Part shown: positions 5,264-19,709 of the stretch, in pieces
Numbering within the stretch: position 1 is the stretch's first letter
How the letters are laid out: the number at the start of each line of letters is the position of its first letter
Position numbers and translations under genes: made by a program
Assembly (NCBI RefSeq): GCF_008728635.1
Contig: NZ_CP044285.1
Span: 2,604,001 to 2,668,000 of the forward strand
Reading direction: 5' to 3'
Origin: Hymenobacter baengnokdamensis
Lineage (GTDB): Bacteria > Bacteroidota > Bacteroidia > Cytophagales > Hymenobacteraceae
Length of the DNA: 64,000 nt
The notes under the pieces: model-generated
What the model was told of the DNA's origin: nothing
What the model saw: only the letters and a program-made list of their open reading frames with translations
Databases searched by the model: none

Positions 5264-5271
5264 TTACTTTG
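5264..5271 (+). promoter_or_regulatory. -7 element immediately before the response regulator start
   Basis: TTACTTTG matches TAnnTTTG at seven of eight positions. It ends 6 nt before the ATG at 5278, so transcription would start at or next to the start codon, giving a leaderless mRNA. This arrangement is repeated at two other genes in the window. Confidence 0.45.
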
Positions 5272-5277
5272 CATTCT

Positions 5278-5961
5278 ATGTCAACTAAAATTCTGCTGGT
5301 CGAAGATGAGCCCAAGGTTTCGGCCTTTATCCGGCGGGGGCTGGAGGAAGAAGGCTACGAGGTAGAAGTAGCCTATGATGGAACTTTTGGCCAGCGGCTG
5401 GCGCTGGAGCAGGAGTTTGACCTGTTGATTCTGGACGTGATTTTGCCCGGCCAAAGCGGGCTGGAAGTGCTGAAGGCCGTGCGCGCCCAGGACCAGGAGC
5501 TGCCTATCCTGATGCTTACGGCGCTGGGCACAACCCAGGATAAGCTGCTGGGCTTTGATGGCGGCGCCGACGACTACCTGGTAAAGCCCTTCGACTTTGT
5601 GGAGCTGCTGGCCCGGGTGCGGGCGCTTACGCGCCGCCGCGACCGGCGTTCGGCTAAAGGTAACCAGCTGAGCCTGGCCGATTTGGTAGTGGATACTGCT
5701 GCCAAAACGGTTGTGCGGGCCGGCCAGCCCATTAAGCTCACTGCCCGCGAATTTAACCTGCTTGAGCTGCTGCTGCGCCACCAGGGCCGCGTGCTGAGCC
5801 GGGGCGAAATTGCGGAGCATACCTGGGAAGACTCATTCGACACCGGCTCCAACGTAATTGACGTGTACGTAAACTACCTGCGCAATAAAGTAGACAAGGG
5901 ATTCGATAAAAAGCTGATTCATACGGTGGTAGGTATGGGGTACGTGCTGCGTGAAGAATAA
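5278..5961 (+). CDS. OmpR-family response regulator, probable regulator of the two metal-efflux operons
   Basis: This is a 227-residue DNA-binding response regulator of the CusR/CopR type. The receiver domain (1-120) has the acidic pair Glu9/Asp10, the phospho-acceptor Asp53 in LLILDVILPG, Thr81 and Lys103 (DDYLVKPF). The C-terminal winged helix (~130-227) has AREFNLLELLLRHQGRVLSR and the wing HTVVGMGYVLREE. The ATG at 5278 is preferred over a TTG three codons upstream. It is followed by its histidine kinase and two HME-RND operons. OmpR-family regulators bind direct repeats spaced by one helical turn, and four such repeats at 11-bp spacing precede each operon, which makes this the likely regulator. 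Confidence 0.95.
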   Translation: MSTKILLVEDEPKVSAFIRRGLEEEGYEVEVAYDGTFGQRLALEQEFDLLILDVILPGQSGLEVLKAVRAQDQELPILMLTALGTTQDKLLGFDGGADDYLVKPFDFVELLARVRALTRRRDRRSAKGNQLSLADLVVDTAAKTVVRAGQPIKLTAREFNLLELLLRHQGRVLSRGEIAEHTWEDSFDTGSNVIDVYVNYLRNKVDKGFDKKLIHTVVGMGYVLREE

Positions 5962-6049: not shown

Positions 6050-7432
6050 ATGACTATCCGGAACCGGCTTACCTGGCTCTTTCTGGGCGTGGTGGCCGTG
6101 CTGTTGCTGGGGGTGCTGGCAATGGTTTTTGTGCTGCAGATGACCACCTCGCAGCGGGAATTCCGGCAGCGGCTGCGCGAGCGGGCGCAGGTGACGGGCT
6201 ATATCTACCTCGAAAAAGATGAGATGCGGGCCAGCGCCTTCCGCGACTTTGAGAAGAAATACCTGCAATCGCTCAGCAACGAGATTTTACAGGTCTACGA
6301 CGCCAAAGGGCAGGTGCGCTTTGTGGCGGAGGATGAGCGCGTGCGGCTTTCGGATGCCATTCTGGCCCGTATTGTTACCAACAAGGAAGTGTACTTTCAG
6401 CTGGGGCAGCGGCAGGCGGTTGGGCTGTTTTATCAGGATAATCAGGGCGACTATATTATTGTAGCAGCGGCCGAAAATGTATATGGCAAGCGGCGGCTGA
6501 AAAGTCTGGCTTCCATAATGAGCGCGATTTACATAAGTAGCCTGCTGGTAATCTATGGCGTAGGCCGGGGGTTTGCCGGGCGGGCGCTGGCTCCCATTGC
6601 GGCGCTCAATGACCAGGTAGACCGCATTACGGCGCACGACCTGCACCAGCGGGTAGATGAGGGCTTTTTGCGTACCAGCGAGCGCGATGACCTCACGCGC
6701 CTGGCCCGGACCTTCAACCGGCTGCTGGAGCGGCTCGAAGCCAGCTTTCAGGGCCAGCGAGCCTTTGTGCGCAATGCCTCGCACGAGCTGCGCACGCCGC
6801 TAACGGCTAGTATCGGAGAGCTTCAGGTATTGCTGGCGCGCGACCGGCCGCCGGCGGCTTATCGGGAGGGCGTCGCATCGGTACTGGCCGAGTTGCAGCA
6901 GCTCAAGGCCTTAATTAATAATCTGCTGGACCTGGCCCAGGCCGAAGAGGCGGTGCCGCTGACCGATGAAGTGCGCCTGGATGAGCTGCTTTGGGAGGTG
7001 CGTGAAGCCGTGGCGCCGGCTCAGCGCGCGCGGATTCAGGTTGACTTAGGCGACCTGGCTGATTTGCCTGCCGACCCTGCCGATTTTGTTGTGCTCGGCC
7101 ACCGTGGGCTGCTAGTGCAGGCTTTGGGTAATCTGGTTGATAACGCGCTGAAATATTCGGCCAGCGACCAGCGGGTGCTGCTTAGCCTGCGCTGTCTGGC
7201 CGGTGGAGAACGCATTGTGCGGGTAGCCGACACCGGCATGGGTATCGCGGCCGACGACCTGGCACAGGTGTTTCAGCCCTTTTTTCGGGCTGCTGCCGTG
7301 CGCGGAGTAACCGGGCATGGGGTAGGGCTGCCACTGGCCCAGCGCATTGTCGGCCTGCACGGCGGCCTGCTCACGCTGCGCTCGGAGCCCGGCCGGGGAA
7401 CAGTAGCAGAGCTGGTATTTGTTGGCCGGTAG
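6050..7432 (+). CDS. Membrane sensor histidine kinase, partner of the response regulator
   Basis: The protein has 460 residues. A first membrane segment lies at ~10-32 and a second at ~157-177, enclosing a periplasmic sensor domain of about 125 residues. It is followed by a HAMP domain (GRALAPIAALNDQVDRITAHDL), a HisKA domain with the phospho-acceptor His245 in ASHELRTPLTAS, and a HATPase_c domain with the N box (ALGNLVDNALKY), G1 (VADTGMGIA), F box and G2 (GVTGHGVGLPLA). All catalytic boxes are present. The 88-nt gap from the regulator is unusually AT-rich just before the ATG. No obvious metal-binding His/Met cluster is visible in the sensor domain, so the signal is inferred from context to be a metal ion. 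Confidence 0.95.
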   Translation: MTIRNRLTWLFLGVVAVLLLGVLAMVFVLQMTTSQREFRQRLRERAQVTGYIYLEKDEMRASAFRDFEKKYLQSLSNEILQVYDAKGQVRFVAEDERVRLSDAILARIVTNKEVYFQLGQRQAVGLFYQDNQGDYIIVAAAENVYGKRRLKSLASIMSAIYISSLLVIYGVGRGFAGRALAPIAALNDQVDRITAHDLHQRVDEGFLRTSERDDLTRLARTFNRLLERLEASFQGQRAFVRNASHELRTPLTASIGELQVLLARDRPPAAYREGVASVLAELQQLKALINNLLDLAQAEEAVPLTDEVRLDELLWEVREAVAPAQRARIQVDLGDLADLPADPADFVVLGHRGLLVQALGNLVDNALKYSASDQRVLLSLRCLAGGERIVRVADTGMGIAADDLAQVFQPFFRAAAVRGVTGHGVGLPLAQRIVGLHGGLLTLRSEPGRGTVAELVFVGR

Positions 7433-7465: not shown

Positions 7466-7505
7466 TTCTAATCGGTTTCTAATGTCCTTCTAATTCTGAC
7501 CTAAT
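7466..7505 (+). promoter_or_regulatory. Four 11-bp-phased direct repeats: probable response-regulator operator 1
   Basis: TTCTAAT begins at 7466, 7477 and 7488, and the variant ACCTAAT begins at 7499, so the spacing is exactly 11 bp each time. The array lies upstream of the first efflux operon. The same four-copy, 11-bp array occurs at 13822-13861 in front of the second operon. One-turn phasing fits an OmpR-family dimer of dimers. Confidence 0.75.
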
Positions 7506-7519
7506 GTACTGGTCGGACC

Positions 7520-7550
7520 TTTGCTTCTTAATTAGAAGCTACTGCTTTTG
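7520..7550 (+). promoter_or_regulatory. Promoter of the first efflux operon
   Basis: TTTG at 7520-7523 is followed after 19 nt by TGCTTTTG at 7543-7550, a one-mismatch fit to TAnnTTTG. The spacing fits Bacteroidota promoters. The phased operator ends 14 nt upstream of the -33 element, a position suited to activation. A perfect 6-bp palindrome (GCTTCT/AGAAGC) lies between the two elements. Confidence 0.5.
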
Positions 7551-7606
7551 ACAGCGGGCCCACAATAGCTCCACTTCGAAGTTCCTAAGCAGCAGATTTA
7601 CCCTTT

Positions 7607-9310
7607 ATGCGTTTTCAAATTTCTGTTTTTCGAATCCTGGCTACTGCCGGAGGCCTAAGCTTAACGGCGGTAGCGAGCTGGGCTCAGCTGCCACAACCCA
7701 ACGCAGCCCGGCCAGCTACCGGGGCACCCCTGCCAGCCGTTACAACGCCTGCTACTACACCAGCGACGACCGGCCAGCAGCCGGGCGCCGCCAGAGGCAC
7801 TACCAGCCCGGCCCAGCTACCGGGGCAGCCTACCGCCACGCCTACATTCGGCCAGCCGGGTACCCCCCTTACCAGTCCCGGCGGGGCGGCCTCCAGCCCG
7901 GCTGCTACCTCCACCACTTCAGCTCCCGGCATGGGGGCGGGCCGGCTGGTAGCGCCGGCGGGGGCGCTTACTGCCCCAGGTGCTTCGGCTGCCGGTGCCC
8001 CCACCATCGGTGCGGGAGGCGGTAATGGGCTGAACAGGTATCCAATTGAGCTGGGTGTGCCGACTGGTGCCGCGGCAACCGCTATTCCTACCGATACGCT
8101 GCGCGTAACGCTCGACCAGGCGCAGGCGCGGTTTATGCAGGCCAACTTTCAGCTGCTGGCCCAGCATTTTAATATCGACGTGGCTAACGCGGCTATCCGG
8201 CAGGCGCTGCTGCGTGATAACCCTAACCTCCAGATGGAGGTGAACGCCTACAACCCAAATACGAATACCTTCTTCCCCCTGAATAAGCAGACTGACCCGA
8301 CGAACCCCACGGGCGGTACCTTTTTGGCGCAGATTCAGCAGCTTATTGATATATCGGGCCGGCGCAGTAAGCTCGTGCAGCTTTCGCGCACGGGGGTTGC
8401 GGTGCAGCAGGCGGCATTTGAAGACCTGCTGCGTCAGGCCCGCTTCCAGCTGGTACAATCGTTCTATAACGTAGCGGCCGAGCGCCGTAAGCTGGGCTTT
8501 ACCGAGCAGGAGCGCGTTCAGCTGGGCCGCCTGCTGGCCGCTTTCCGCGAGCGGCTGCGGCTGGGGGTGGTGGCTTCTTACGAAGTAACCCGCCTCGAAC
8601 TGGAGCAGCAAAGCCTGGAGCGCGACCGCAGCGACCTGCTCAATCAGCTTACCCAGGACCAGGCTACCCTGCGCGTACTGCTGGCCGCGCCGGGCTCCGT
8701 GTTTGTATCGCCCGAAGGAGTGGAATTTCTGCCCGATGCTCCGGCTGTAGTGCCTGAGTTGGCTTATCTGGAAACCCAGGCCTTTGCGCTGCGGCCCGAC
8801 CTGCGGGCGGCTACCCAGCAAACGGTCTATACCCAGCAAAACCTGGCCGTTCAGCATTCGCTGGCTATCCCCAAGCTCCTGGTAGGCGCGGACTATGCCA
8901 GTCAGGGCAGCACCTATTCGCATTATTTTGGCTTGCAATCGGCCATCGACCTGCCGATTGCCAACCGTAACCAGGGCAATATTCAAGCCGCTAAGATTGG
9001 TATTCAGCAGTCGGGCTTTGCGTTGAATGCGGTGCATTTACAGGTGGAGCAGGATGTAGCGTCCGCCTACGAGCAGTTGCAGCGTGCTATCACCTTGCGG
9101 CGCAGTATTACGCCCGACTACCTGGCCCGCACGGCCAACGTGAGCCGCGACGCTGTAGCCGACTATAATCGCCGCCTTATCGACCTGGTGAGCTTCATCG
9201 ACAAGTTTCGGGCCTATAAAGAGGCGCAGCTTGGGCTTATCGATATCAGCAGCCGCCTGCTGCAAAGCGAGCAGCAAGTCAATTTCGCCACCAACGCCAA
9301 AGTATTTTAA
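7607..9310 (+). CDS. TolC-family outer membrane channel of heavy-metal efflux (CzcC-like) with long Pro/Thr/Ala-rich N-terminal extension
   Basis: The protein has 567 residues, longer than the usual ~420-450. A signal peptide (residues 1-26, ending SWAQ) is followed by a low-complexity region of about 130 residues rich in Pro, Ala, Thr and Gly. The outer membrane efflux domain begins near residue 163 (DTLRVTLDQAQARFMQANFQLLAQ). Inside the fold, LPIANRNQGNIQAAKIGIQQ is the conserved CzcC-type hairpin signature. It would form the exit duct through the outer membrane for the adaptor and pump encoded directly downstream. The paralogue at 13938 lacks the extension entirely, so the insert is specific to this copy; its role is unknown, though a disordered tether or peptidoglycan-spanning linker is possible. 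Confidence 0.93.
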   Translation: MRFQISVFRILATAGGLSLTAVASWAQLPQPNAARPATGAPLPAVTTPATTPATTGQQPGAARGTTSPAQLPGQPTATPTFGQPGTPLTSPGGAASSPAATSTTSAPGMGAGRLVAPAGALTAPGASAAGAPTIGAGGGNGLNRYPIELGVPTGAAATAIPTDTLRVTLDQAQARFMQANFQLLAQHFNIDVANAAIRQALLRDNPNLQMEVNAYNPNTNTFFPLNKQTDPTNPTGGTFLAQIQQLIDISGRRSKLVQLSRTGVAVQQAAFEDLLRQARFQLVQSFYNVAAERRKLGFTEQERVQLGRLLAAFRERLRLGVVASYEVTRLELEQQSLERDRSDLLNQLTQDQATLRVLLAAPGSVFVSPEGVEFLPDAPAVVPELAYLETQAFALRPDLRAATQQTVYTQQNLAVQHSLAIPKLLVGADYASQGSTYSHYFGLQSAIDLPIANRNQGNIQAAKIGIQQSGFALNAVHLQVEQDVASAYEQLQRAITLRRSITPDYLARTANVSRDAVADYNRRLIDLVSFIDKFRAYKEAQLGLIDISSRLLQSEQQVNFATNAKVF

Positions 9311-9380
9311 TTAACTAAGAAGCAAGAAAGGGATTTGGCCTGCCGGCTGATTACGTCCTTCTAATTCTCTACGTACCCAA

Positions 9381-10487
9381 ATGAACGTGTTTCAAAAAAT
9401 GCCCTTTCGCTTGCTTATCACGGCTGTGCTGGCAGCGCCAATACTAAGCCTGCCCGCCTGCAGCGAGAAAAAAGCTGAGCTTCCTACTAATAGCAAGGAC
9501 ACGGAGTCGACTTATCGGACTGATACAGTAATGACGCGTAACCTGGCCGATGACCTGCGCTTTACTGGTAAAGTAAGCTATGACCAGCGCCGCGTCGACC
9601 AGGTATTTCCGGTGGTGAGCGGTAATGTACTCGACGTATCGGCTACGCTGGGTGCGCATGTGCAGCAGGGGCAGGCCCTGGCCCGCGTGCAAAGTGCCGA
9701 CGTGAGCGGTTACCTCAACGACTTTAATGCCGCCAAGAGCGATTTTGCGCTGGCCCAGCGTAATGCCAACAACACCGAGCAGCTTTATAAAACCAACTTC
9801 GCTTCGCAGTCAGATTTGATTGCCGCCCGCGAAGGCCTGGTTAAAGCCCAGTCGGCCCTGAACCGTACCCAGCAGATTCTGAAGCTTTATGGCGCTAGCA
9901 GCAATGGCACTGCCAAACCAATCTACGAAGTAAAAGCCCCGGTTAGCGGGTTTGTTGTGGCCCGCAATGTGAACCCTAACATGCAGTTGCGGCCCGACAA
10001 CTCGACGCCCCTTTTTATTATCTCGGACCTGAGCAGGGTCTGGATTCTATTCAATATCTACGAAACTGATATTTCGGCCTTGCGCATTGGCCAGCAGGTT
10101 GATATTACGGCGCTGGCTTATCCCGACAAAAAATTCTCGGGTACCATCACCAACATCTCGAACGTAGTTGATGCTGATACGCGGGTGCTGCAAGCCCGGG
10201 TAGAATTGCCCAACCCAGGGGGACTTCTCAAGCCTGATATGTTCTGCACCGTGAGCCTGCACCTTGAAAATTCGGGTAAGAATCTGGCGCTTAATCCTAA
10301 ATCGGTGATTTTCAGCAAGGATAAGTACTTCGTAGTAAAGCAGACTGCGCCTGGCAAATACGCAGTTGTGCCGGTTAATGTGGTGCGCTCAACTCCGGAA
10401 TATACCTATGTAACGGGAAGCCTTAAGAATGGTGACCAGGTGGTTACGGAAGGTAGCCTGCTACTATTCAACGATTTGACGGATTAG
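9381..10487 (+). CDS. RND efflux periplasmic adaptor lipoprotein (CzcB-like)
   Basis: The 368-residue protein links the inner membrane pump to the outer membrane channel. A lipoprotein signal ends in the lipobox LPAC (Cys at ~27). The barrel-sandwich domain begins VFPVVSGNVLDVSATLGAHV and continues after a helical hairpin (residues ~115-165) with YEVKAPVSGFVVARNVNPN. The beta-barrel contains LSRVWILFNIYETDISALRIGQ, typical of heavy-metal adaptors. The C-terminal membrane-proximal domain follows. No His- or Met-rich metal-binding segment is visible. A single TTCTAAT word lies at 9359-9365 in the short gap before the start, but without the phased partners. It belongs to the first efflux operon. 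Confidence 0.94.
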   Translation: MNVFQKMPFRLLITAVLAAPILSLPACSEKKAELPTNSKDTESTYRTDTVMTRNLADDLRFTGKVSYDQRRVDQVFPVVSGNVLDVSATLGAHVQQGQALARVQSADVSGYLNDFNAAKSDFALAQRNANNTEQLYKTNFASQSDLIAAREGLVKAQSALNRTQQILKLYGASSNGTAKPIYEVKAPVSGFVVARNVNPNMQLRPDNSTPLFIISDLSRVWILFNIYETDISALRIGQQVDITALAYPDKKFSGTITNISNVVDADTRVLQARVELPNPGGLLKPDMFCTVSLHLENSGKNLALNPKSVIFSKDKYFVVKQTAPGKYAVVPVNVVRSTPEYTYVTGSLKNGDQVVTEGSLLLFNDLTD

Positions 10488-10637
10488 TTTTTAGTTGCCG
10501 GCTACACGCTGCGCATTGCCGGCCGCCGGTAATTACTGCGCAACGGGCTGCCGAAGCCAAAAGACTCGCCCCGGCTTCATGAGCCGCTGGCCCGGCATTG
10601 CCTGGCAACTGCCAACCAACAACTGACAACTAGTTAA
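10484..10637. repeat. Intra-operon spacer with AGTTGCC/GGCAACT inverted repeat and repeated CAACT words
   Basis: AGTTGCC at 10493-10499 pairs with GGCAACT at 10604-10610. The right side continues with repeated AAC/CAACTG words up to the pump start codon. The stop codon of the adaptor lies at the left edge. It is a weaker example of the word-built spacer hairpins seen at 2730, 16431 and 32370. Confidence 0.4.
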
Positions 10638-10639
10638 CA

Positions 10640-13600
10640 ATGAACAAATTCATAAAAGGCCTCATCGGTTTCTCGCTGAAGCATCCCTATGTCATTTTCT
10701 TTATCACGGCACTAGTGGTTGTGGCAGGGGCAGTGAGTTTCTACTATACTCCGGTAGAGGCTTACCCCGATGTAACAAACACGGAAGTGGTAATTATTAC
10801 GCAGTGGCCTGGCCGCTCGGCCGAAGAAGTAGAGCGCTTCATCTCCATTCCGATTGAGACGGAGATGAACTCGATAAGCCGCAAAACGGTCATTCGCTCC
10901 ATTAACCTGTTTGGCCTTTCCTTCATCAAGATTGTGTTTGAGGACGGGGCTGATAACTTCAACGCCCGCATGGAAGCCGCTCAAAAGCTGGCTAACGTGA
11001 ACCTGCCCGATGGCGTGACCGCTGGCGTGCAGCCACCTACCGGCCCGACCGGGGAAATCTACCGTTTCACCCTCGTCTCCAAAACAAAAACGGCTACTGA
11101 GCTTAAAACCCTGGAGGATTGGGTAATTGAAAAAAACCTCAAGGCGGTGCCGGGAGTAGGCGACGTCGTTAGCTTCGGCGGTAAGGTAAAAACGTACGAG
11201 GTAGCCGTAACGCCTCCGCTGCTAACCAAATATGGCTTGACGGCCCTCGACGTATTTCAGGCTTTGCAGCGCGCCAACGTGAACGTGGGCGGCGACATTG
11301 TGCGGGAAGGCCAGCAGGCGTTTGTGGTGCGCGGTATTGGCATTGTAAAAAATGTGGCCGATATCGAGAAGATTATCATTAAAAATGTGAACGGTGTGCC
11401 AGTGCTGGTTCGCAATATCGGCACCGTACACACCTCTAACCTGCCGCAGCTTGGCATAGTGGGCCGCGACGACCACGACGATGTAGTGGAAGGTATCGTG
11501 CTCATGCGCAAGGGTGAAAACCCGGGGGCCGTGCTGCCCCTGCTCGAAGCCAAGGTAGACTACCTGAATACCACAGTGCTGCCCGGTGATGTACGCCTCA
11601 AGGTATTCTACGACCGCACCGAGCTTAACGAACATACCCTGCACACAGTAGGGGAGAACGTGGCAATGGGCATTACGCTGGTAACCATTATTCTGCTGAT
11701 TTTTCTGGCCGACTGGCGCACCACGATAACCGTTGCAATGGTTATTCCGCTGGCCCTGCTCTTTGCCTTTATCCTGATGCGCTGGAAAGGCATGACGGCC
11801 AATCTGCTCAGCATCGGGGCTATCGACTTCGGCATCATCATCGACGGGGCCGTGGTAATGGTGGAAGGGCTCTTTGTAATGCTGGCTCACTGGGCCGAGC
11901 ACGAAGGCATGGAGGAGTTCAACAAGCGCGCGAAGCTGAGCAAAATTCTGCACACGGGTACGGAGATGGGTAAGTCCATCTTCACGTCCAAGCTCATTAT
12001 TGTAACGGCTCTGATTCCCATCTTCTCGTTTCAGAAAGTAGAGGGAAAACTGTTTTCCCCGTTGGCCTTTACCCTCGGGTTTGCGCTGCTGGGCGCCTTG
12101 CTGCTGGCCCTTACGCTGGTGCCGGTGCTGTCGTCCATCCTGCTGAAGAAGAATGTGCGCGAGCGGCATAATCCGCTCATCGAGTTTCTCAACCGCAACT
12201 ATGCGCCTCTGCTCGATAAGGTAATGGGCAACCCCCGCACGGCAATGCTTACCGCACTGCTGGCCCTTATTGCCGGCATTGGCGCTTTTCACTTCGTCGG
12301 AACGGAGTTTTTGCCCCACCTGAACGAGGGCAGCATCTACGTGCGGGCCTCGATGCCGCTGAGCATCAGCCTGGAAGATTCCTACCATTTTACCAAGCAG
12401 TTTCGGCAGGATTTTGAGCAGTACCCGGAGGTACGGGGCGTGATTTCGCAGACCGGCCGTCCCAATGATGGTACCGATGCCACGGGCTTCTTCAACCAGG
12501 AGTTCTTTGTCGATTTGTACCCGGCCGAGCAGTGGAAGCGTAAGATTACCAAGGATGAGCTAATTGTAGAGATGCAAAAAAAGCTTAGTCACTACCGCGG
12601 GGTTGACTTCAACTTTTCCCAGCCGATTTCCGACAACGTGGAGGAAGCCGTATCGGGCGTAAAGGGGTCGATGGCCGTGAAGATTACGGGCGATGACCTT
12701 AATTTCCTGGATAAAAAAGCCGATGAAGTATATGCGCAGCTAAAGAAGGTAAAAGGGGTTGAAGACCTCGGTATCTTCCGAAATCTTGGCCAGCCCGAAC
12801 TGCACATTACCCTCGACCCGGATAAGATGGCGCAGTTTGGCGTGAGCGCTGCCGACGCCAACGCGGTTATTGAAATGGCAATCGGCGGCAAGGCCGTGAG
12901 CCAGGTGTTTGAGGGTGAGCGCAAATTTGACCTGCGCCTGCGCTACGATATCCCGTATCGTTCAACCCCCGACCAGATTGGCGACCTCACAGTGCCAAAT
13001 CTGAGCGGCGGTAAAATCAAGCTTCAGGAAATTGCGAAGATTGAAAACGTATCGGGTCCGGCCTTTATCTATCGGGAGAATAATTCCCGCTTTATCGCTA
13101 TCAAGTTCTCGGTGCGGGGCCGCGACCTGGGCTCGACTATTGCGGAAGCTCAAAAGCTGGTGGCGGCCAACGTGAAGCTGCCCAAAGGCTACGCAACGGG
13201 ATGGAACGGCGAGTTTGAAAACCAGGAGCGTGCCCAGCGTCAGCTTTCCATCGTGGTGCCTATCAGCATCCTTGCTATCTTCTTTATTCTGTTTATCTCC
13301 TTTGGCAACGTGCTTGATTCGGTGCTGGTGCTGCTCAACGTGCCCTTTGCCCTCATTGGGGGTATCGCGGCGCTACTGCTAACGGGCGTTAACTTTTCTA
13401 TCTCGGCCGGCGTGGGCTTTATCGCACTCTTCGGGGTAGCCACGCAGGATGGGGTAATTCTGGTCAATAAATTCCGCCAGAATATGCGCGAGGGTATGCC
13501 CCTGGTGCAGGCCATTAAAGATGGGGCCCGGTCACGACTGCGCCCGGTAATGATGACGGCACTCATGGCTTCGCTCGGGCTCTTACCAGCTGCCCTCAGC

Positions 13601-13747
13601 CACGGCATCGGCTCTGAAACCCAGAAGCCGCTGGCTATCGTGGTTATTGGCGGCCTGATAACCGCGACGCTGTTGTCGCTGCTTATTTTGCCGGCGGTTT
13701 ACGAGTGGGTATATAGCAGCAAGCAGGAGCGGGAGCGACATAAATAA
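10640..13747 (+). CDS. czcA: CzcA-type heavy-metal efflux RND pump (HME family), copy 1
   Basis: The 1035-residue protein is a proton-driven inner membrane pump with twelve membrane helices and two large periplasmic loops. TM4 contains DFGIIIDGAVVMVE with Asp396, Asp402 and Glu409, the proton-relay motif D-x5-D-x6-E found in pumps for divalent cations (Zn, Co, Cd, Ni) and not the motif of the Cu/Ag pump CusA. Further family blocks are TEVVIITQWPGRSAEEVERFIS, split here by no gap, TGPTGEIYRFTL, GTEFLPHLNEGSIYVRASMP and NFSQPISDNVEE. Length is normal. It forms a tripartite system with the two upstream products. The substrate is inferred from the TM4 motif only. Confidence 0.95.
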   Translation: MNKFIKGLIGFSLKHPYVIFFITALVVVAGAVSFYYTPVEAYPDVTNTEVVIITQWPGRSAEEVERFISIPIETEMNSISRKTVIRSINLFGLSFIKIVFEDGADNFNARMEAAQKLANVNLPDGVTAGVQPPTGPTGEIYRFTLVSKTKTATELKTLEDWVIEKNLKAVPGVGDVVSFGGKVKTYEVAVTPPLLTKYGLTALDVFQALQRANVNVGGDIVREGQQAFVVRGIGIVKNVADIEKIIIKNVNGVPVLVRNIGTVHTSNLPQLGIVGRDDHDDVVEGIVLMRKGENPGAVLPLLEAKVDYLNTTVLPGDVRLKVFYDRTELNEHTLHTVGENVAMGITLVTIILLIFLADWRTTITVAMVIPLALLFAFILMRWKGMTANLLSIGAIDFGIIIDGAVVMVEGLFVMLAHWAEHEGMEEFNKRAKLSKILHTGTEMGKSIFTSKLIIVTALIPIFSFQKVEGKLFSPLAFTLGFALLGALLLALTLVPVLSSILLKKNVRERHNPLIEFLNRNYAPLLDKVMGNPRTAMLTALLALIAGIGAFHFVGTEFLPHLNEGSIYVRASMPLSISLEDSYHFTKQFRQDFEQYPEVRGVISQTGRPNDGTDATGFFNQEFFVDLYPAEQWKRKITKDELIVEMQKKLSHYRGVDFNFSQPISDNVEEAVSGVKGSMAVKITGDDLNFLDKKADEVYAQLKKVKGVEDLGIFRNLGQPELHITLDPDKMAQFGVSAADANAVIEMAIGGKAVSQVFEGERKFDLRLRYDIPYRSTPDQIGDLTVPNLSGGKIKLQEIAKIENVSGPAFIYRENNSRFIAIKFSVRGRDLGSTIAEAQKLVAANVKLPKGYATGWNGEFENQERAQRQLSIVVPISILAIFFILFISFGNVLDSVLVLLNVPFALIGGIAALLLTGVNFSISAGVGFIALFGVATQDGVILVNKFRQNMREGMPLVQAIKDGARSRLRPVMMTALMASLGLLPAALSHGIGSETQKPLAIVVIGGLITATLLSLLILPAVYEWVYSSKQERERHK

Positions 13748-13769
13748 AGCCTTCATCCTGAAGTAATTT

Positions 13770-13805
13770 AAAAGCCTCCAGTCTAATTGGCTGGAGGCTT
13801 TTTTT
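13770..13805 (+). terminator. Rho-independent terminator after the first efflux operon
   Basis: An 11-bp perfect stem (AAAGCCTCCAG at 13771-13781 with CTGGAGGCTTT at 13791-13801), a 9-nt loop and a run of T follow 23 nt after the stop. It separates the two efflux operons, so they are separate transcription units. Confidence 0.9.
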
Positions 13806-13821
13806 GGCATCTGGAAACAAT

Positions 13822-13861
13822 TTCTAATCTCTTCCTAATCTAATACTAATCTGTTTCCAAT
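13822..13861 (+). promoter_or_regulatory. Four 11-bp-phased direct repeats: probable response-regulator operator 2
   Basis: TTCTAAT, TCCTAAT, TACTAAT and TTCCAAT begin at 13822, 13833, 13844 and 13855, again exactly 11 bp apart. The consensus TTCTAAT and the copy number match the array at 7466-7505. Confidence 0.75.
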
Positions 13862-13902: not shown

Positions 13903-13910
13903 TAGCTTTG
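13903..13910 (+). promoter_or_regulatory. -7 element of the second efflux operon
   Basis: TAGCTTTG is a perfect TAnnTTTG match, 42 nt after the operator array and 27 nt before the GTG start. No TTTG is present 19-21 nt upstream, so the promoter lacks a -33 element and may depend on activation from the operator. Confidence 0.6.
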
Positions 13911-13937
13911 TAAGCTAACCCAAAGCCAAGCTTAGCC

Positions 13938-15257
13938 GTGATTACGCAGAATAAGTTACATCTAAAGGGAAATCGACTTCGCGCCATAAGTAGAATCCTT
14001 GCTTTTTTAGTAATTTTCGCTACCCAGGCCTTAGCCCAGCCCGCTGTAGACACCCTACGCCTGACGCTGCCCGATGCCGAGCAGCGCTTCGTGCAAAACA
14101 ACCTGCAGCTGCTGGCCCAGCGCTACAACATCACGGCGGCGCAGGCACTGGCGGTGCAGGCAAAGCTCATTGATAACCCGACTATATCGCTGGACCAGAA
14201 TATTCTGCAGCAGTCGATTTATCGGCAGGAGCCTGATGGCGCGGGCCAACAGAACCAGGTGGCATTTCAGGTGCAGCAGCTGTTTGCGCTGGCGGGCCGC
14301 CGACGCGCAGCGGGCAAAGCTGCCCAGCAGGCGGCCGTGGTCGAAACCTTCAACCTCGAAGACCTGGTGCGCAACCTGCGCTTTCAGCTGCGTACGACGT
14401 TTTACGACGTGTACTTCCGCCAGCAGACCCTGCGCGTGTACGATACCGAAATACCCCAGCTTCAGCACACTGTAGACCTTTACCAGAGCCAGTACGAGAA
14501 GGGCAACATTGCGCTCAAAGAGGTTATCCGGCTCAAGGCGTTTCTCTTTACCCTGCAAAGCGAGCGGCTGGGCCTGATAACCGAGCAGGCCAATGGCCAG
14601 GCCGACCTGCACGTGCTGCTGCGCGACTCGACCCGCTCGGCTTACCAGCCGGTGGTTGACCCCAACCGCGTGCGCGACATCTCGCTGAATGCCTACTCCG
14701 AAACGCAGCTGACCGACACGGCCGTAGCTCGCCGCGCCGACCTGCTGGCCCGCCGGGCCGAGGTGCAGCGCCAGGAGCTGAATCTGCGCCTGCAGCGGGC
14801 CGTGGCCACGCCCGACCTCGCCGTTGGCTACAGCTACGACCGTCTGGGCTCCTATATCAATAATTATAACTCCCTGACCCTGGGAGTTGCGGTGCCCTTG
14901 TTTAACCGTAACCAGGGTAATATTCAGGCCGCTAAAGCCCAGATAAGCAACGCCCAGGCCCAGGCCGCCCAGCAGCAGCTGGTGGTGCGCCGCGATGTGC
15001 ACGAGGCCTACCAGGTAGCCCTGCGCCAGGACGACCTCTACCAGCACACCAGCCGCGATACGACGCCCTTTGCGCGCCTCATCGACAACATCGAGCAGAG
15101 CTATACCAAGCGCCTTATCAGCGTAGTAGAGTATCTGGATTTTTACGAAGCATACAAAAACAACGTTATTCAGCTCAATACGCTGCGCGCCAACCGGATG
15201 CGGGCCTTTGAGAGCCTCAATCTTGCCGCCGGGCGCACGTTCTTCCGCGCCGAATAA
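13938..15257 (+). CDS. TolC-family outer membrane channel of heavy-metal efflux (CzcC-like), copy 2
   Basis: The protein has 439 residues. A GTG start gives a good signal peptide ending ATQALAQ, and no ATG is available nearby. The efflux fold starts at once (DTLRLTLPDAEQRFVQNNLQLL) and contains the same NRNQGNIQAAKAQI hairpin signature as copy 1. It is the outer membrane exit duct for the adaptor and pump that follow. In contrast to copy 1 it has no low-complexity extension. The blocks shared with copy 1, such as QLLAQ and the FNRNQGNIQAAK region, indicate that the operons arose by duplication followed by divergence. Confidence 0.94.
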   Translation: MITQNKLHLKGNRLRAISRILAFLVIFATQALAQPAVDTLRLTLPDAEQRFVQNNLQLLAQRYNITAAQALAVQAKLIDNPTISLDQNILQQSIYRQEPDGAGQQNQVAFQVQQLFALAGRRRAAGKAAQQAAVVETFNLEDLVRNLRFQLRTTFYDVYFRQQTLRVYDTEIPQLQHTVDLYQSQYEKGNIALKEVIRLKAFLFTLQSERLGLITEQANGQADLHVLLRDSTRSAYQPVVDPNRVRDISLNAYSETQLTDTAVARRADLLARRAEVQRQELNLRLQRAVATPDLAVGYSYDRLGSYINNYNSLTLGVAVPLFNRNQGNIQAAKAQISNAQAQAAQQQLVVRRDVHEAYQVALRQDDLYQHTSRDTTPFARLIDNIEQSYTKRLISVVEYLDFYEAYKNNVIQLNTLRANRMRAFESLNLAAGRTFFRAE

Positions 15258-15328
15258 TTCTTTCTCACTAGCCTCGAATGACAAGGAGCTGTGCTTTCGG
15301 AAGCCTGCCCTGCCACTACTCACTATTC

Positions 15329-16426
15329 ATGAATCGCGCTGCTTATTTTCTGTTGCTGACCCTGGGCCTGGGGGCCTGCTCCAAGTCGGAATCTACGACG
15401 AAAGAGGAACCAAAAACCGCCAAGAAATTCTCGCTTTCTGACCAGACCCTTAAGGAGCTGGCCTTCGATACTGTGCGCCTGGAGCCCATGCGCAGCGAGC
15501 AGTCGTTTTCGGGCCAGGTGAAAACCAATGGCGACAAAACTGCCAAAGTATTCCCGCTGGTAGGCGGAATAGTCGAAAAGCTTAATGTAGAGCTGGGCGA
15601 CCACGTTACCAAGGGCCAGGTGCTGGCCGTGGTGCGCTCGGGCGAGATTGCCGACGTGCAGAACCAGAACAGTACGGCCGGCACCGACCTGGCGATTGCC
15701 CAGAAAAACCTGTCGGTAGCCGAAGACCAGTTTAAAGCTGGTCTGGCGGCTGAGCGCGACGTGGTGCTGGCCCGCGAAGAGCTGCGCAAAGCGCAGAGCA
15801 ACCTCGGCAAAACCAACAAGCAGCTGGGTATCTATGGGGTGTCGCGCGATGGGCATTACACTATTAAAGCCCCGATTTCGGGCTTTATCACGGATAAAAA
15901 CGTGACCCAGGGCATGCAGTACACCAATGCCAACACTGACGCCGACGGCTTTTTTACCATCGCCGACCTCGACCAGGTATGGGTGCTGGCCAACGTGTTT
16001 GAGTCGGACATCGCCAACGTGAAGCTGGGCTACCAGGCCGACATTACCACGCTCTCGTACCCCGACAAGCACTTTCACGGCGTGGTGGATAAGGTGTTCA
16101 ACGTGCTTGACCCCGACAGCAAGGCCCTGAAGGTGCGCATTCGGCTGCCCAACCCCGGCTACCTGCTCAAGCCCGAGATGTACGCCCAGGTGCACATTCT
16201 CAATACCGAAAACCAAAAGGCATTGGCCGTGCCGACCAACGCGGTGATTTTCGACAAAGACCAGCATTTTGTGCTGGTGTATAAAAGCCGGACGGAGGTC
16301 GATACCCGCCCGGTGAAAGTGGTGAAGACGGTGGGCGACGTGAGCTACGTGAGCGGCAATCTTAAGGCCGGCGACATTATCGTTACCAAAAACCAACTGC
16401 TCGTGTACGACGAGCTGAATGACTAA
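15329..16426 (+). CDS. RND efflux periplasmic adaptor lipoprotein (CzcB-like), copy 2
   Basis: The protein has 365 residues. The ATG at 15329 gives the lipoprotein signal MNRAAYFLLLTLGLGACSK with lipobox LGAC; an upstream in-frame ATG would bury this signal. The lipoyl-like domain halves are VFPLVGGIVEKLNVELGDHV and YTIKAPISGFITDKNVTQG, separated by a coiled-coil hairpin. The barrel block LDQVWVLANVFESDIANVKLG parallels copy 1. It connects the upstream channel to the downstream pump. No metal-binding repeats are seen. Confidence 0.94.
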   Translation: MNRAAYFLLLTLGLGACSKSESTTKEEPKTAKKFSLSDQTLKELAFDTVRLEPMRSEQSFSGQVKTNGDKTAKVFPLVGGIVEKLNVELGDHVTKGQVLAVVRSGEIADVQNQNSTAGTDLAIAQKNLSVAEDQFKAGLAAERDVVLAREELRKAQSNLGKTNKQLGIYGVSRDGHYTIKAPISGFITDKNVTQGMQYTNANTDADGFFTIADLDQVWVLANVFESDIANVKLGYQADITTLSYPDKHFHGVVDKVFNVLDPDSKALKVRIRLPNPGYLLKPEMYAQVHILNTENQKALAVPTNAVIFDKDQHFVLVYKSRTEVDTRPVKVVKTVGDVSYVSGNLKAGDIIVTKNQLLVYDELND

Positions 16427-16430
16427 CTGT

Positions 16431-16541
16431 CATTTAACAGGTAGCATCTGCCGGTTAACAGCCCCTGCGCTGTGGTGTACTGCCACAGCCGGCGCGTTGT
16501 AGATAAGCGGTGATAAAGAGCTGAAAAGCAACTGTTAAATG
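16431..16541. repeat. Intra-operon inverted repeat between adaptor and pump genes, copy 2
   Basis: CATTTAACAG (16431-16440) pairs perfectly with CTGTTAAATG (16532-16541). Inside lies a second GC-rich hairpin, GCTGTGG/CCACAGC at 16469-16475 and 16483-16489. The word TTAACAG is repeated within the left side. The position is equivalent to the spacer of copy 1. Confidence 0.6.
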
Positions 16542-16559
16542 GTAAATGATACTTGCTAA

Positions 16560-19500
16560 ATGAATAAGTTTATTCAAGGCATTATTGCCTTTTCGCTCAA
16601 GAACAAGGGCTTTATTTTCCTGCTCACGCTGGCGGCAATTATTGCCGGTGTAGTGAGCTACCGGAATACGCCCATCGAGGCCTTTCCGGACGTAACGAAC
16701 ACCGAAATCACCATCATTACGCAGTGGCCCGGCCGCTCGGCCGAGGAGATTGAGAAGTTTGTGACCGCGCCCATTGAAATCGCGCTCAACCCCGTGCAGA
16801 AGAAAACCAGCGTGCGCTCGACCACGCTCTTTGGCCTGTCGGTGGTGAAGGTGATTTTCGATGATGGCGTAGACGACGCCTTTGCCCGCGTGCAGGTCAA
16901 CAACCTGCTGGCCGGGGCCGACCTGCCCGAAGGCGCGGCGCCCGAGGTGCAGCCGCCCTACGGCCCGACGGGGGAGATTTTTCGCTACACGCTGGCATCT
17001 AACGATAAATCGACCCGCGAGCTGAAAACCATTCAGGACTGGGTAGTAGAGCGTAACCTGAAGGCCGTGCCCGGCGTGGCCGACGTGAACAGCTTCGGCG
17101 GCGAGGTAAAGAGCTACGAGATATCGGTAGACCCCAGCAAGCTGCAGGATTTTGGCCTCACGCCGCTCGACCTCTACACGGCCGTGCAGCGCTCCAACAT
17201 CAACGTGGGCGGCGACGTGATAAATGAAGGCCAGCAGAACTACGTGGTGCGCGGCATTGGCCTGCTGAACAACATCTCGGACATCAACAACACGGTCATC
17301 AAAAACGTGAACGGCGCGCCGATTCTGGTGAAAGACGTGGCGCAGGTAGCCGAAGCGGCCCTGCCCCGCCTGGGCCGCGTGGGCCGGGGCCTGAACGACG
17401 ACATGGTGGAAGGCATTGTGGTAATGCGCAAAGGCGAAAACCCGTCGGAAGTTATCAAGCTGCTGCAAGCCAAGGTAGAACTGCTGAACGACAAGATTCT
17501 GCCGCCCGACGTGAAAATCAGCACGTTCTACAATCGCCAGAACCTGATTGACTTCTCGACCGAAACCGTTATTCATAACCTCACCGAGGGCATGATTTTC
17601 GTGACGGTAATTGTGTTCCTGTTCATGGCCGACTGGCGCACCACGGTCATTGTGAGCATTATCATTCCGCTGGCGCTGCTGTTTGCCTTCATCTGCCTGC
17701 GCCTCAAAGGTATGAGTGCCAACCTGCTCAGCATGGGCGCTATCGACTTCGGTATCATCATCGACGGGGCCGTGGTAATGGTGGAAGGGCTCTTTGTGGC
17801 GCTCGACCACAAAGCCCACGAGGTGGGCATGGAGCGCTTCAACAAGCTCGCCAAGCTGGGCATCATCAAGAAAACCGGCCGCGATATGGGTAAATCCATC
17901 TTCTTTGCCAAGGCCATCATTATCACCGCATTGCTGCCGATTTTCTCGTTTGAGAAAGTGGAGGGCAAAGTGTTTTCGCCGCTGGCCTGGACGCTGGGCT
18001 TCGCGCTGCTCGGCGCGCTGATTTTTACTCTGACGCTGGTGCCGGTGCTGGCCTCCATTCTGCTGCGCAAGAACGTGCGGGAGAAAGACAACTTCTTCGT
18101 GCGGGCCATCAGCAAGGGCGCGAAGAACGTATTTGATTTTACATATATTCATAAAACCGCTAGTCTGCTGGCGGCGGCGGCGGCCGTGGTGGTGGGCATC
18201 GGCATGTACCAGTTTTTGGGCACCGAGTTTTTGCCCGAGCTAAATGAGGGCTCCATCTACGTGCGGGCGCAGCTGCCGCTGAGTATCTCGCTCGATGCGT
18301 CGAACAAGCTTTGCAACGAGATGCGGCGCGTATTCATCAGCTTTCCCGAAGTGAGCGACGTAGTAAGCCAGACCGGCCGCCCCAACGATGGTACCGACCC
18401 CACGGGCTTCTACAACAACGAGTTTCTGGTGCAGATAAAGCACACCGATGAGGTACAGAAGAACATGAAGCATAAAGCTTACCGGGAGGCGCTTATCGAG
18501 CGGATGCAGGAAAAGCTAAACCGTTTTCCGGGCGTCGACTTCAACTTCTCGCAGCCCATCACCGACAACGTGGAGGAAGCGGCTTCGGGCGTGAAGGGAA
18601 GTATAGCAGTTAAAATATATGGCACTGACCTCAAGCTGATGGAAGGCAAAGCCCGCCAGGTATATGAGATACTGCAAAAGGTGGATGGCATCGACGACCT
18701 GGGTCTGCTGCGCAACATCGGCCAGCCCGAGCTACACGCCGACCTCGACGAGCGTCGCATGGCCAGCTACGGTGTCAGTAAAAGCGACGCCAACGCCGTG
18801 CTCGAAATGGCGGTGGGCGGCAAGCAGGCCAGCCAGATGTACGAAGGCGAGCGCAAATTCCCGATTCGGGTGCGCTACGAGCCGCAGTTCCGCGAAAGCC
18901 CGGCCCAGATTTCGTCGCTCATGGTGCCCACGCAAGCGGGCAAAACTGTGCCCCTCAACGAAATAGCCGACATCAGGCAGGTAACCGGCCCCAGCCTGAT
19001 TTACCGCGACGACAACACCCGCTTCTCGGCTGTGAAATTTTCGGTGCGGGGCCGCGACCTGGGCTCAGCCATTGCGGAGGCGCAGGAAAAGGTGAACAAA
19101 GTAGTGGTGCTGCCCAAAGGCTACTCTATGAAATGGACCGGCGACTTCGAGAACCAGCGCCGGGCCTCGCAGCGGCTGGCGCAGGTGGTGCCCATCTCGC
19201 TGGCGCTCATTTTCTTCATTCTGTTTATTCTCTTTGGCAACCTCAAAGATGCCGGGCTGGTGCTGCTCAACGTGCCGTTTGCCCTCATCGGCGGCATTGC
19301 CATGCTGCTCATTACGCACACCAACTTCTCGATTTCGGCTGGTATCGGCTTCATTGCCCTGTTTGGTATCTGTATTCAGAACGGCGTTATTCTTATCAGC
19401 GTCTTTAAGCAGAACATGCTCAATAAGATGAGCCTCGACCGTAGCTTGTCGGAAGGCGTGGCCTCGCGCGTGCGGCCGGTCGTGATGACGGCCCTGATGG

Positions 19501-19709
19501 CTATCATCGGCCTCATGCCGGCGGCCCTCAGCACCGGCATCGGCTCCGAAACCTCTAAGCCTCTGGCTATTGTGGTTATCGGCGGCCTGCTCACGGGTAC
19601 TGTCCTCACGCTGTTCATCTTCCCGCTGATATTCGAGCGCACGTACCGCGCCTCGCACACGCACTACGCCGACGACCGGACTACCGGCCGCGAGCTGGCC
19701 GCGCATTAG
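16560..19709 (+). CDS. czcA: CzcA-type heavy-metal efflux RND pump (HME family), copy 2
   Basis: The 1049-residue pump is a paralogue of the one at 10640. The TM4 proton-relay motif DFGIIIDGAVVMVE is identical and falls at the same residues (Asp396, Asp402, Glu409), so divalent-cation efflux is again predicted. Shared blocks include TIITQWPGRSAEEIE, PPYGPTGEIFRYTL, GTEFLPELNEGSIYVRAQLP, NFSQPITDNVEEAASGVKGS and SRVRPVVMTALMAIIGLMPAA. Twelve membrane helices are expected. The divergent periplasmic loops between the two copies suggest different metal preference or affinity. It is the last gene of the second operon and is followed by a hairpin terminator. Confidence 0.95.
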   Translation: MNKFIQGIIAFSLKNKGFIFLLTLAAIIAGVVSYRNTPIEAFPDVTNTEITIITQWPGRSAEEIEKFVTAPIEIALNPVQKKTSVRSTTLFGLSVVKVIFDDGVDDAFARVQVNNLLAGADLPEGAAPEVQPPYGPTGEIFRYTLASNDKSTRELKTIQDWVVERNLKAVPGVADVNSFGGEVKSYEISVDPSKLQDFGLTPLDLYTAVQRSNINVGGDVINEGQQNYVVRGIGLLNNISDINNTVIKNVNGAPILVKDVAQVAEAALPRLGRVGRGLNDDMVEGIVVMRKGENPSEVIKLLQAKVELLNDKILPPDVKISTFYNRQNLIDFSTETVIHNLTEGMIFVTVIVFLFMADWRTTVIVSIIIPLALLFAFICLRLKGMSANLLSMGAIDFGIIIDGAVVMVEGLFVALDHKAHEVGMERFNKLAKLGIIKKTGRDMGKSIFFAKAIIITALLPIFSFEKVEGKVFSPLAWTLGFALLGALIFTLTLVPVLASILLRKNVREKDNFFVRAISKGAKNVFDFTYIHKTASLLAAAAAVVVGIGMYQFLGTEFLPELNEGSIYVRAQLPLSISLDASNKLCNEMRRVFISFPEVSDVVSQTGRPNDGTDPTGFYNNEFLVQIKHTDEVQKNMKHKAYREALIERMQEKLNRFPGVDFNFSQPITDNVEEAASGVKGSIAVKIYGTDLKLMEGKARQVYEILQKVDGIDDLGLLRNIGQPELHADLDERRMASYGVSKSDANAVLEMAVGGKQASQMYEGERKFPIRVRYEPQFRESPAQISSLMVPTQAGKTVPLNEIADIRQVTGPSLIYRDDNTRFSAVKFSVRGRDLGSAIAEAQEKVNKVVVLPKGYSMKWTGDFENQRRASQRLAQVVPISLALIFFILFILFGNLKDAGLVLLNVPFALIGGIAMLLITHTNFSISAGIGFIALFGICIQNGVILISVFKQNMLNKMSLDRSLSEGVASRVRPVVMTALMAIIGLMPAALSTGIGSETSKPLAIVVIGGLLTGTVLTLFIFPLIFERTYRASHTHYADDRTTGRELAAH

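Follow-up and report, generated by a model that had tools for sequence, protein, structure and literature searches.

Operators built of tandem repeats are familiar from response regulators (RRs) of the OmpR/PhoB family. In the pho box, repeats of 11 bp replace the -35 element and PhoB activates transcription as a class II regulator via sigma region 4; the PmrA box has CTTAAT-like words at 11 bp, within a proteobacterial -35/-10 promoter. The operators of the CzcRS and CusRS systems of Proteobacteria are inverted-repeat-like. Here we describe a stretch of 64,000 nucleotides of the Hymenobacter baengnokdamensis genome (contig NZ_CP044285.1, positions 2,604,001–2,668,000 of the forward strand; hereafter the window), in which two CzcCBA-type efflux operons lie downstream of the genes for an RR and a sensor histidine kinase (HK), each operon being preceded by an array of four TTCTAAT-like words. 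Each array is very probably the operator of this RR (gene at 5278–5961): the phosphorylated protein would bind as tandem dimers, activate in a class II or class-I-like manner and read the C of the words through its Tyr200.

Compared with the window system, PhoB has a different word (CTGTCAT), a different signal (phosphate), and an Arg at the place of Tyr200. As in CzcRS and CusRS, the RR–HK pair stands next to CzcCBA-type efflux genes, and its best NCBIfam matches are TIGR01387 (cztR/silR/copR) for the RR and TIGR01386 (CztS/SilS/CopS heavy-metal sensor kinase) for the HK. Both proteins, however, score below the curated cut-offs (252.8 against 279.2 bits, and 181.8 against 292.55, respectively) and are therefore not assigned to these families. 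The RR does belong to the OmpR/PhoB family by its domains, PF00072 (93.1 bits) and PF00486 (91.7 bits), both above gathering. PmrA/BasR, of the same family, also recognizes tandem half-sites with head-to-tail DNA-binding domains, but its complex holds two half-sites, with base-specific contacts made by Asn188 and Asn196 (PMC4660055).

A closer structural likeness is offered by Mycobacterium tuberculosis PhoP. In its crystal structure with a direct repeat, Tyr220 hydrogen-bonds C5 of TCACAGC, with Tyr217 packed against T4 and C5; a 7-bp motif and a 4-bp spacer make up the unit, which is bound head to tail in tandem and is extensible to trimers and tetramers (PMC4832192). The PhoP recognition helix, NVVESYVSYLR, can be aligned with the NVIDVYVNYLR of the window RR without a gap, which places Tyr220 on Tyr200; C5 of the PhoP motif would correspond to the C of TTCTAAT. 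The two systems share the 7 + 4 bp unit and the gapless helix, and would share head-to-tail tandem binding and the Tyr–C contact. They differ in the motif and in the phylum, and the accessible part of the PhoP work describes neither a fixed 10-nt spacing to TAnnTTTG nor a Tyr/Phe switch. A tandem-repeat operator of OmpR type is of a known kind; as far as our searches show, the phylum-wide layout and the natural Tyr/Phe–C/T switch presented below are new. No operator of a Bacteroidota metal two-component system, and no such words, were found in the open literature, subscription journals being largely outside that search.

The two arrays and the regulator–kinase pair

The elements on which the argument depends are the following (window coordinates):

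5278–5961, + strand: OmpR/PhoB-family RR gene, with Response_reg and Trans_reg_C domains
6050–7432, + strand: HK gene, with HAMP, HisKA, and HATPase domains
7466–7505, + strand: array 1, one 7-bp word every 11 bp, four in all; predicted operator of two dimers in tandem
7516–7523, + strand: -7 box of operon 1, GACCTTTG, 5/6 to TAnnTTTG, 10 nt after the last word
13822–13861, + strand: array 2, four words at 11-bp steps
13903–13910, + strand: -7 box of operon 2, TAGCTTTG, 6/6, 41 nt after the last word

Array 1 consists of TTCTAAT (7466), TTCTAAT (7477), TTCTAAT (7488), and ACCTAAT (7499), and array 2 of TTCTAAT (13822), TCCTAAT (13833), TACTAAT (13844), and TTCCAAT (13855). An earlier note on this DNA, made from the sequence alone, had reported four such words at exact 11-bp steps before both operons and otherwise unrelated surroundings, and both statements were borne out, positions included: the arrays agree at 23 of 28 word positions, while the 4-nt spacers agree at 3/12 and the flanks at 11/60 and 20/60. 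Within the 64 kb, a three-word pattern at 11 bp (up to three mismatches) matched only inside the two arrays, and none of 100 shuffled sequences contained any three-word match. TTCTAAT itself occurs six times in the window on both strands, with four copies inside the arrays.

The genome-wide search for four phased words that the same note had suggested also pointed to the two arrays. In the whole genome (4,428,884 bp), four phased CTAAT words with at most three mismatches gave six matches, against three for the reversed pattern. The two arrays, at zero and one mismatch, were the only four-word matches below three mismatches; the other four, all with three, were two 11-bp-shifted registers of array 2 and two sites elsewhere. 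Chance repeats were rejected on the basis of the shuffles, this genome search, and the promoter-offset shuffles given below.

The earlier note had placed the OmpR-family regulator gene directly beside operon 1; the adjoining gene is in fact the kinase, and the RR gene is present one gene further upstream. We preferred the ATG at 5278 as the RR start over the listed TTG at 5269, and residue numbers are counted from it. The closest named relative in the RR search was from Hymenobacter sp. BRD67 (97% identity), and the genome itself contains two further matches at E <= 1e-50. A -7-like box, TTACTTTG, lies at 5264–5271, very near the RR ATG, so the RR transcript may be leaderless. The whole-genome pattern search found no four-word array ahead of the RR gene, and hence there is no sign of autoregulation through the same words.

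Promoter geometry and conservation of the arrays

According to Flavobacterium psychrophilum data, the TAnnTTTG box sits at -12 to -5 (PMC9723704). On this scale, transcription would start near 7528 for operon 1 and near 13915 for operon 2, and relative to these inferred starts array 1 spans -62 to -23, covering the place of the -33 element, while array 2 spans -93 to -54. No TTTG was found 17–22 nt upstream of the -7 box of either operon. As claimed earlier, operon 2 therefore has a perfect -7 element and lacks a -33 element; the box of operon 1, however, had been overlooked. At operon 1, the predicted operator overlaps the upstream promoter element at a fixed spacing to the box (10 nt), as in class II sites of the PhoB/PmrA type, whereas array 2 ends 41 nt before its box, off the -33 region, and is not of this type. 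Array 2 stands three turns farther upstream than array 1 and keeps roughly its face of the helix, and in its orthologs TAGCTTTG stands at 30, 41, or 52 nt. The operon 1 array looks class-II-type and the operon 2 array class-I-like. For operon 1, GACCTTTG was preferred to another -7 candidate, TGCTTTTG at 7543, which was rejected since it is the 10-nt offset that is conserved, and the palindrome GCTTCTTAATTAGAAGC near 7523–7539 was rejected as a part of the system, since it is not kept in the nearest relative (L081).

The spacing was evaluated in arrays collected blind to the promoter: 92 loci from word-only searches, plus the window, yielded 118 arrays, 107 of them distinct. In 64 of the 107, exactly 10 nt separated the last word from a -7 box (at least 5/6); in 18 the gap was 21 or 22 nt, and nine had a 6/6 box at 30, 41, or 52 nt. 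When the downstream sequences were shuffled 200 times, at most six arrays coincided at any one offset. The offsets 10, 21, 30, 41, and 52 differ from one another by nearly whole turns of the helix. Where the gap was 10 nt, pieces of the words, TAAT and AATT among them, were the most frequent tetramers 19–21 nt upstream of the box.

Arrays of four phased CTAAT words, with two mismatches allowed, were detected in 69 of 149 relatives; these 69 include 54 of the 91 genomes of the genus, our own counted. An RR 68–100% identical to that of the window was found in 58 of the 91, and 48 of these 58 carried the four-word array at the same threshold. A two-word form, TTCTAAT-N4-TTCTAAT (eight exact, two with one mismatch), was present in the remaining 10, its distance to a -7-like box being 10 nt. 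The earlier note had proposed comparing orthologous promoters, and the words are kept there; the two-word form occupies the same promoter position. A Fisher value for arrays against RRs in the genus is disregarded here, because its grouping (G066 and G088 included, ten other genomes of 68–71% identity excluded) was chosen once the genomes with arrays were known. Six genomes of the genus had an array without such an RR: in one (G057), the kinase and the array lie on a 3.6-kb contig without an RR match, and the other five (G001, G040, G062, G068, and G079) have a different six-word array.

To place the arrays relative to regulatory genes, 172 array loci were fetched, 80 from relatives and 12, 40, and 40 from the phylum, class, and order samples. 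An OmpR-type RR gene was located within 3 kb upstream on the same strand in 118 of them (54/80, 8/12, 29/40, and 27/40, respectively). Where a kinase was recognized, the array was usually directly behind the kinase gene and before the next co-oriented operon, often one for efflux.

In wider samples, the complete layout was more frequent than its controls. Four CTAAT words, ten free bases, and TAnnTTTG (up to three mismatches) occurred in 40 of 395 Bacteroidia genomes, against one for the reversed pattern; a TTAAT version with the box (up to two mismatches) occurred in 18 of 395, against four. When either base was allowed at the first position of the core (up to one mismatch, with the box), 118 of 250 genomes in the order of G857 and 15 of 248 in the order of G395 had a match, and the reversed pattern had none in either. 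Named carriers include Sphingobacterium (L197, L244) and a Prolixibacteraceae metagenome-assembled genome (L203). TTAAT-type matches at two to three mismatches in other phyla (L237, L248, L251) we take for chance in AT-rich DNA.

Recognition-helix residue, word type and alternative explanations

We compared the residue at RR position 200, Tyr or Phe, with the base, C or T, that opens the YTAAT core of the words. In a first set of 220 RR hits, 122 had an array under one rule and 98 had none. Among those with Phe, 16 had no C word and one (L248) had one; among those with Tyr, the numbers with 0, 1, 2, 3, and 4 C words were 1, 1, 13, 26, and 64. Forty further loci gave 26 pairs, eight with Phe, all without a C word, and 18 with Tyr, all with at least one; 12 had no RR, and two were outside the rule, both with Tyr (L341, RR on the other strand; L346, RR 3098 nt away). 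After L248 (Clostridium) and L317 (a very long branch) were dropped, 133 distinct RRs remained: all 23 with Phe had no C word, and 106 of the 110 with Tyr had two or more, three had one, and one had none. Among well-filled columns of the RR alignment, position 200 was the best separator of word type (overlap 0.04; next best 0.13 and 0.35). On a tree built without this column, five residue changes (at least four forced by supported branches) and six word changes were counted, and in four independent pairs the word changed in the same direction in 3.9 on average and never in the opposite one. This covariation links array and response regulator more closely than their adjacency alone would, and one recognition-helix residue appears to set one letter of the word. 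By analogy with PhoP, a Phe, having no hydroxyl, would remove a bond of the Tyr220 type and make space for the methyl group of thymine.

Both word types occur side by side in at least six genomes (G000, G022, G031, G395, G808, and G826), and base composition of the genome is therefore not the reason for the difference. Our own genome is one example. It contains a paralogous RR–HK pair (L135; G000:C1:3070000-3086000) whose RR is 64–65% identical to that of the window and has the helix NVIDVYINFLR in place of NVIDVYVNYLR. On the minus strand at 3075921–3075958, behind the kinase gene, lies an array with the words TTTTAAC, TTTTAAT, TTTTAAG, and GCTTAAT, 10 nt before the -7-like box TAAGCTTG; a carbonic anhydrase gene (PF00484) follows. 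The arrays had been proposed as sites for a metal-responsive regulator. The tie between array and regulator is supported, but the layout is not specific for metals, since it also precedes this carbonic anhydrase gene. At another locus (L152), the next open frame is a fragment of a SulP-type permease (PF00916).

The operator reading can be put as a sequence of steps, all predicted. The kinase encoded at 6050–7432 would, presumably under metal stress, phosphorylate the RR. Two RR dimers in tandem would then occupy the four words in head-to-tail orientation, each monomer covering 11 bp. The downstream monomer at operon 1 would stand in for the absent -33 element and deliver RNA polymerase to the promoter (class II); the array of operon 2 would act from roughly three turns farther upstream, on nearly the same side of the helix (class-I-like). 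Tyr200 would read the C of CTAAT, and a Phe there would go with TTAAT.

An opposite sign of regulation, with the RR covering the -33 region of operon 1 and blocking the polymerase until metal releases it, would account for the overlap of array 1 with that region (-62 to -23). We consider it unlikely: with no TTTG 17–22 nt before either -7 box, the basal strength of both promoters is expected to be low, in arrays with a 10-nt gap the commonest tetramers at 19–21 nt are word fragments, and the 30–52 nt by which the array stays away from the box, at operon 2 as in the orthologs, are more in keeping with activation. Activation from such sites is also frequent among phosphorylated OmpR/PhoB proteins. 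That a different protein, a stand-alone repressor or an OmpR-type regulator encoded elsewhere, binds the arrays and the neighboring pair is incidental seems improbable to us, even though the genome has two further RR matches, direct repeats at 11 bp would suit any OmpR-family protein, and 54 of the 172 array loci have no such RR within 3 kb upstream. Against it stand the 118 loci with an RR on the same strand, the change of the word with the recognition-helix residue of the adjacent RR, and the paralogous pairs, which keep their own word type within one genome in at least six genomes. Phased TAAT tracts at 11 bp could also bend DNA, and the words might then be a structural element that aids the polymerase without any specific regulator; this is hardly credible, because the C or T that opens the core varies with a residue of the protein, the words agree (23/28) where the spacers differ (3/12 in agreement), and only two four-word arrays with fewer than three mismatches exist in the genome.

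Several results weigh against the operator reading or weaken it. The scores below the NCBIfam heavy-metal cut-offs mean that metal as the signal rests on the neighboring pumps. The four words alone (up to one mismatch) were found in 17 of 395 phylum genomes, against five for the reversed control. RR relatives from Zetaproteobacteria, Nitrospirae, and Planctomycetes had no array within three mismatches (non-Bacteroidota relatives checked: L207, L209, L211–L218, L220, L221, L223, L228), and neither did the Bacteroidota relatives L198, L201, L202, L205, L208, L227, L230, and L232 have an array. No -7 box was found at the expected offsets in 16 of the 107 distinct arrays. The Tyr exceptions are L200, with no C word, and L300, L339, and L356, with one, and the sign test on the four independent pairs gave 0.125, the switches being too few for it to get to 0.05. 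In 54 of the 172 loci there was no OmpR-type RR within 3 kb upstream on the same strand. In part of these, no RR was found anywhere in the fetched stretch (L037, L065, L070, L086, L092, L095, L104–L106, L109, L115, L160, L170, L171, L303–L305, L312, L314–L316, L324, L329, L343, L350, L353, L357–L360, L369, L371–L373, L376), and in others it was elsewhere in the stretch (L052, L054, L058, L060, L061, L064, L069, L072, L074, L076, L077, L083, L097, L100, L107, L168, L321, L341); L322 satisfies the array rule only if further mismatches are allowed. Among the loci without an RR, some are contig ends, the stretch stopping close to the array (for example L115, L315, and L316), some look like chance arrays, and some may be distal members.

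Beyond the window, we somewhat favor the view that these arrays reflect a promoter grammar shared by OmpR-type regulators of the Bacteroidota, in which four, and up to seven, YTAAT words at 11 bp stand one or two turns before TAnnTTTG and replace the -33 element, with a single-residue Tyr/Phe switch of specificity that keeps paralogous pairs apart and makes regulons predictable phylum-wide. If so, the operators and regulons of many such systems could be deduced straight from genome sequences, and the exchange of a single residue within a natural family of regulators would become a testable specificity switch. It would also raise the concrete question of how the primary sigma factor of Bacteroidota is recruited without a -33 element.

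The efflux operons and array variants

Downstream of the RR and HK genes, the two complete CzcCBA-type operons occupy 7607–13747 and 13938–19709:

7607–9310, + strand: outer-membrane efflux protein, CzcC-like (OEP)
9381–10487, + strand: membrane-fusion protein, CzcB-like (HlyD_D23, RND_mfp)
10640–13747, + strand: RND pump 1, CusA/CzcA family (TIGR00914, 933.8 bits), with motif DFGIIIDGAVVMVE
13770–13806, + strand: intrinsic-terminator-like hairpin with T run between the operons (-23.5 kcal/mol, z -6.43)
13938–15257, + strand: second outer-membrane efflux protein (OEP)
15278–16426, + strand: second membrane-fusion protein (domain and family profile matches)
16560–19709, + strand: RND pump 2, CusA/CzcA family (TIGR00914, 908.8 bits)

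Both pumps exceed the curated TIGR00914 cut-off of 701.45 and so belong to the CusA/CzcA family, and both contain DFGIIIDGAVVMVE, which we take to be typical of divalent-cation pumps. Among solved structures, the best sequence match of pump 1 is ZneA (4k0e). The hairpin at 13770–13806 is absent from the list of a simple terminator consensus scan; as a strong hairpin separating the operons, it makes it probable that operon 2 needs its own promoter.

Several variants of the array were noted in other genomes. By eye, CTAAT fills positions 1, 2, and 4 of the arrays in genus g64, whereas TTAAT is very frequent at position 3; the monomer at one position may accept T or favor it. Seven loci (L045, L049, L053, L057, L090, L112, L113) have two arrays, each with a -7-like box at 10 nt, and an extra gene for a HlyD-type adaptor between the kinase and the pump operon. 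A third array type of the genus, with mixed words, was seen in L052, L058, L060, L061, L069, L076, and L077; it has six words 21 nt before the -7 box, except in L058, which differs in the count. By eye, the next gene in L061 resembles a SulP permease fused to a carbonic anhydrase. In L136–L145, whose RRs form a sister group (64–71% identical), only two clear words are kept, and they precede a HlyD-like gene and another gene for a response regulator. In L054, L074, L083, L177, L178, L181, L183, and L186, the RR and kinase genes are some 5 kb apart, with other DNA between them. In the window itself, a lone TTCTAAT lies ahead of the CzcB-like gene, within a 14-mer, GTCCTTCTAATTCT (9355–9368), that is also present in array 1 (7484–7497).

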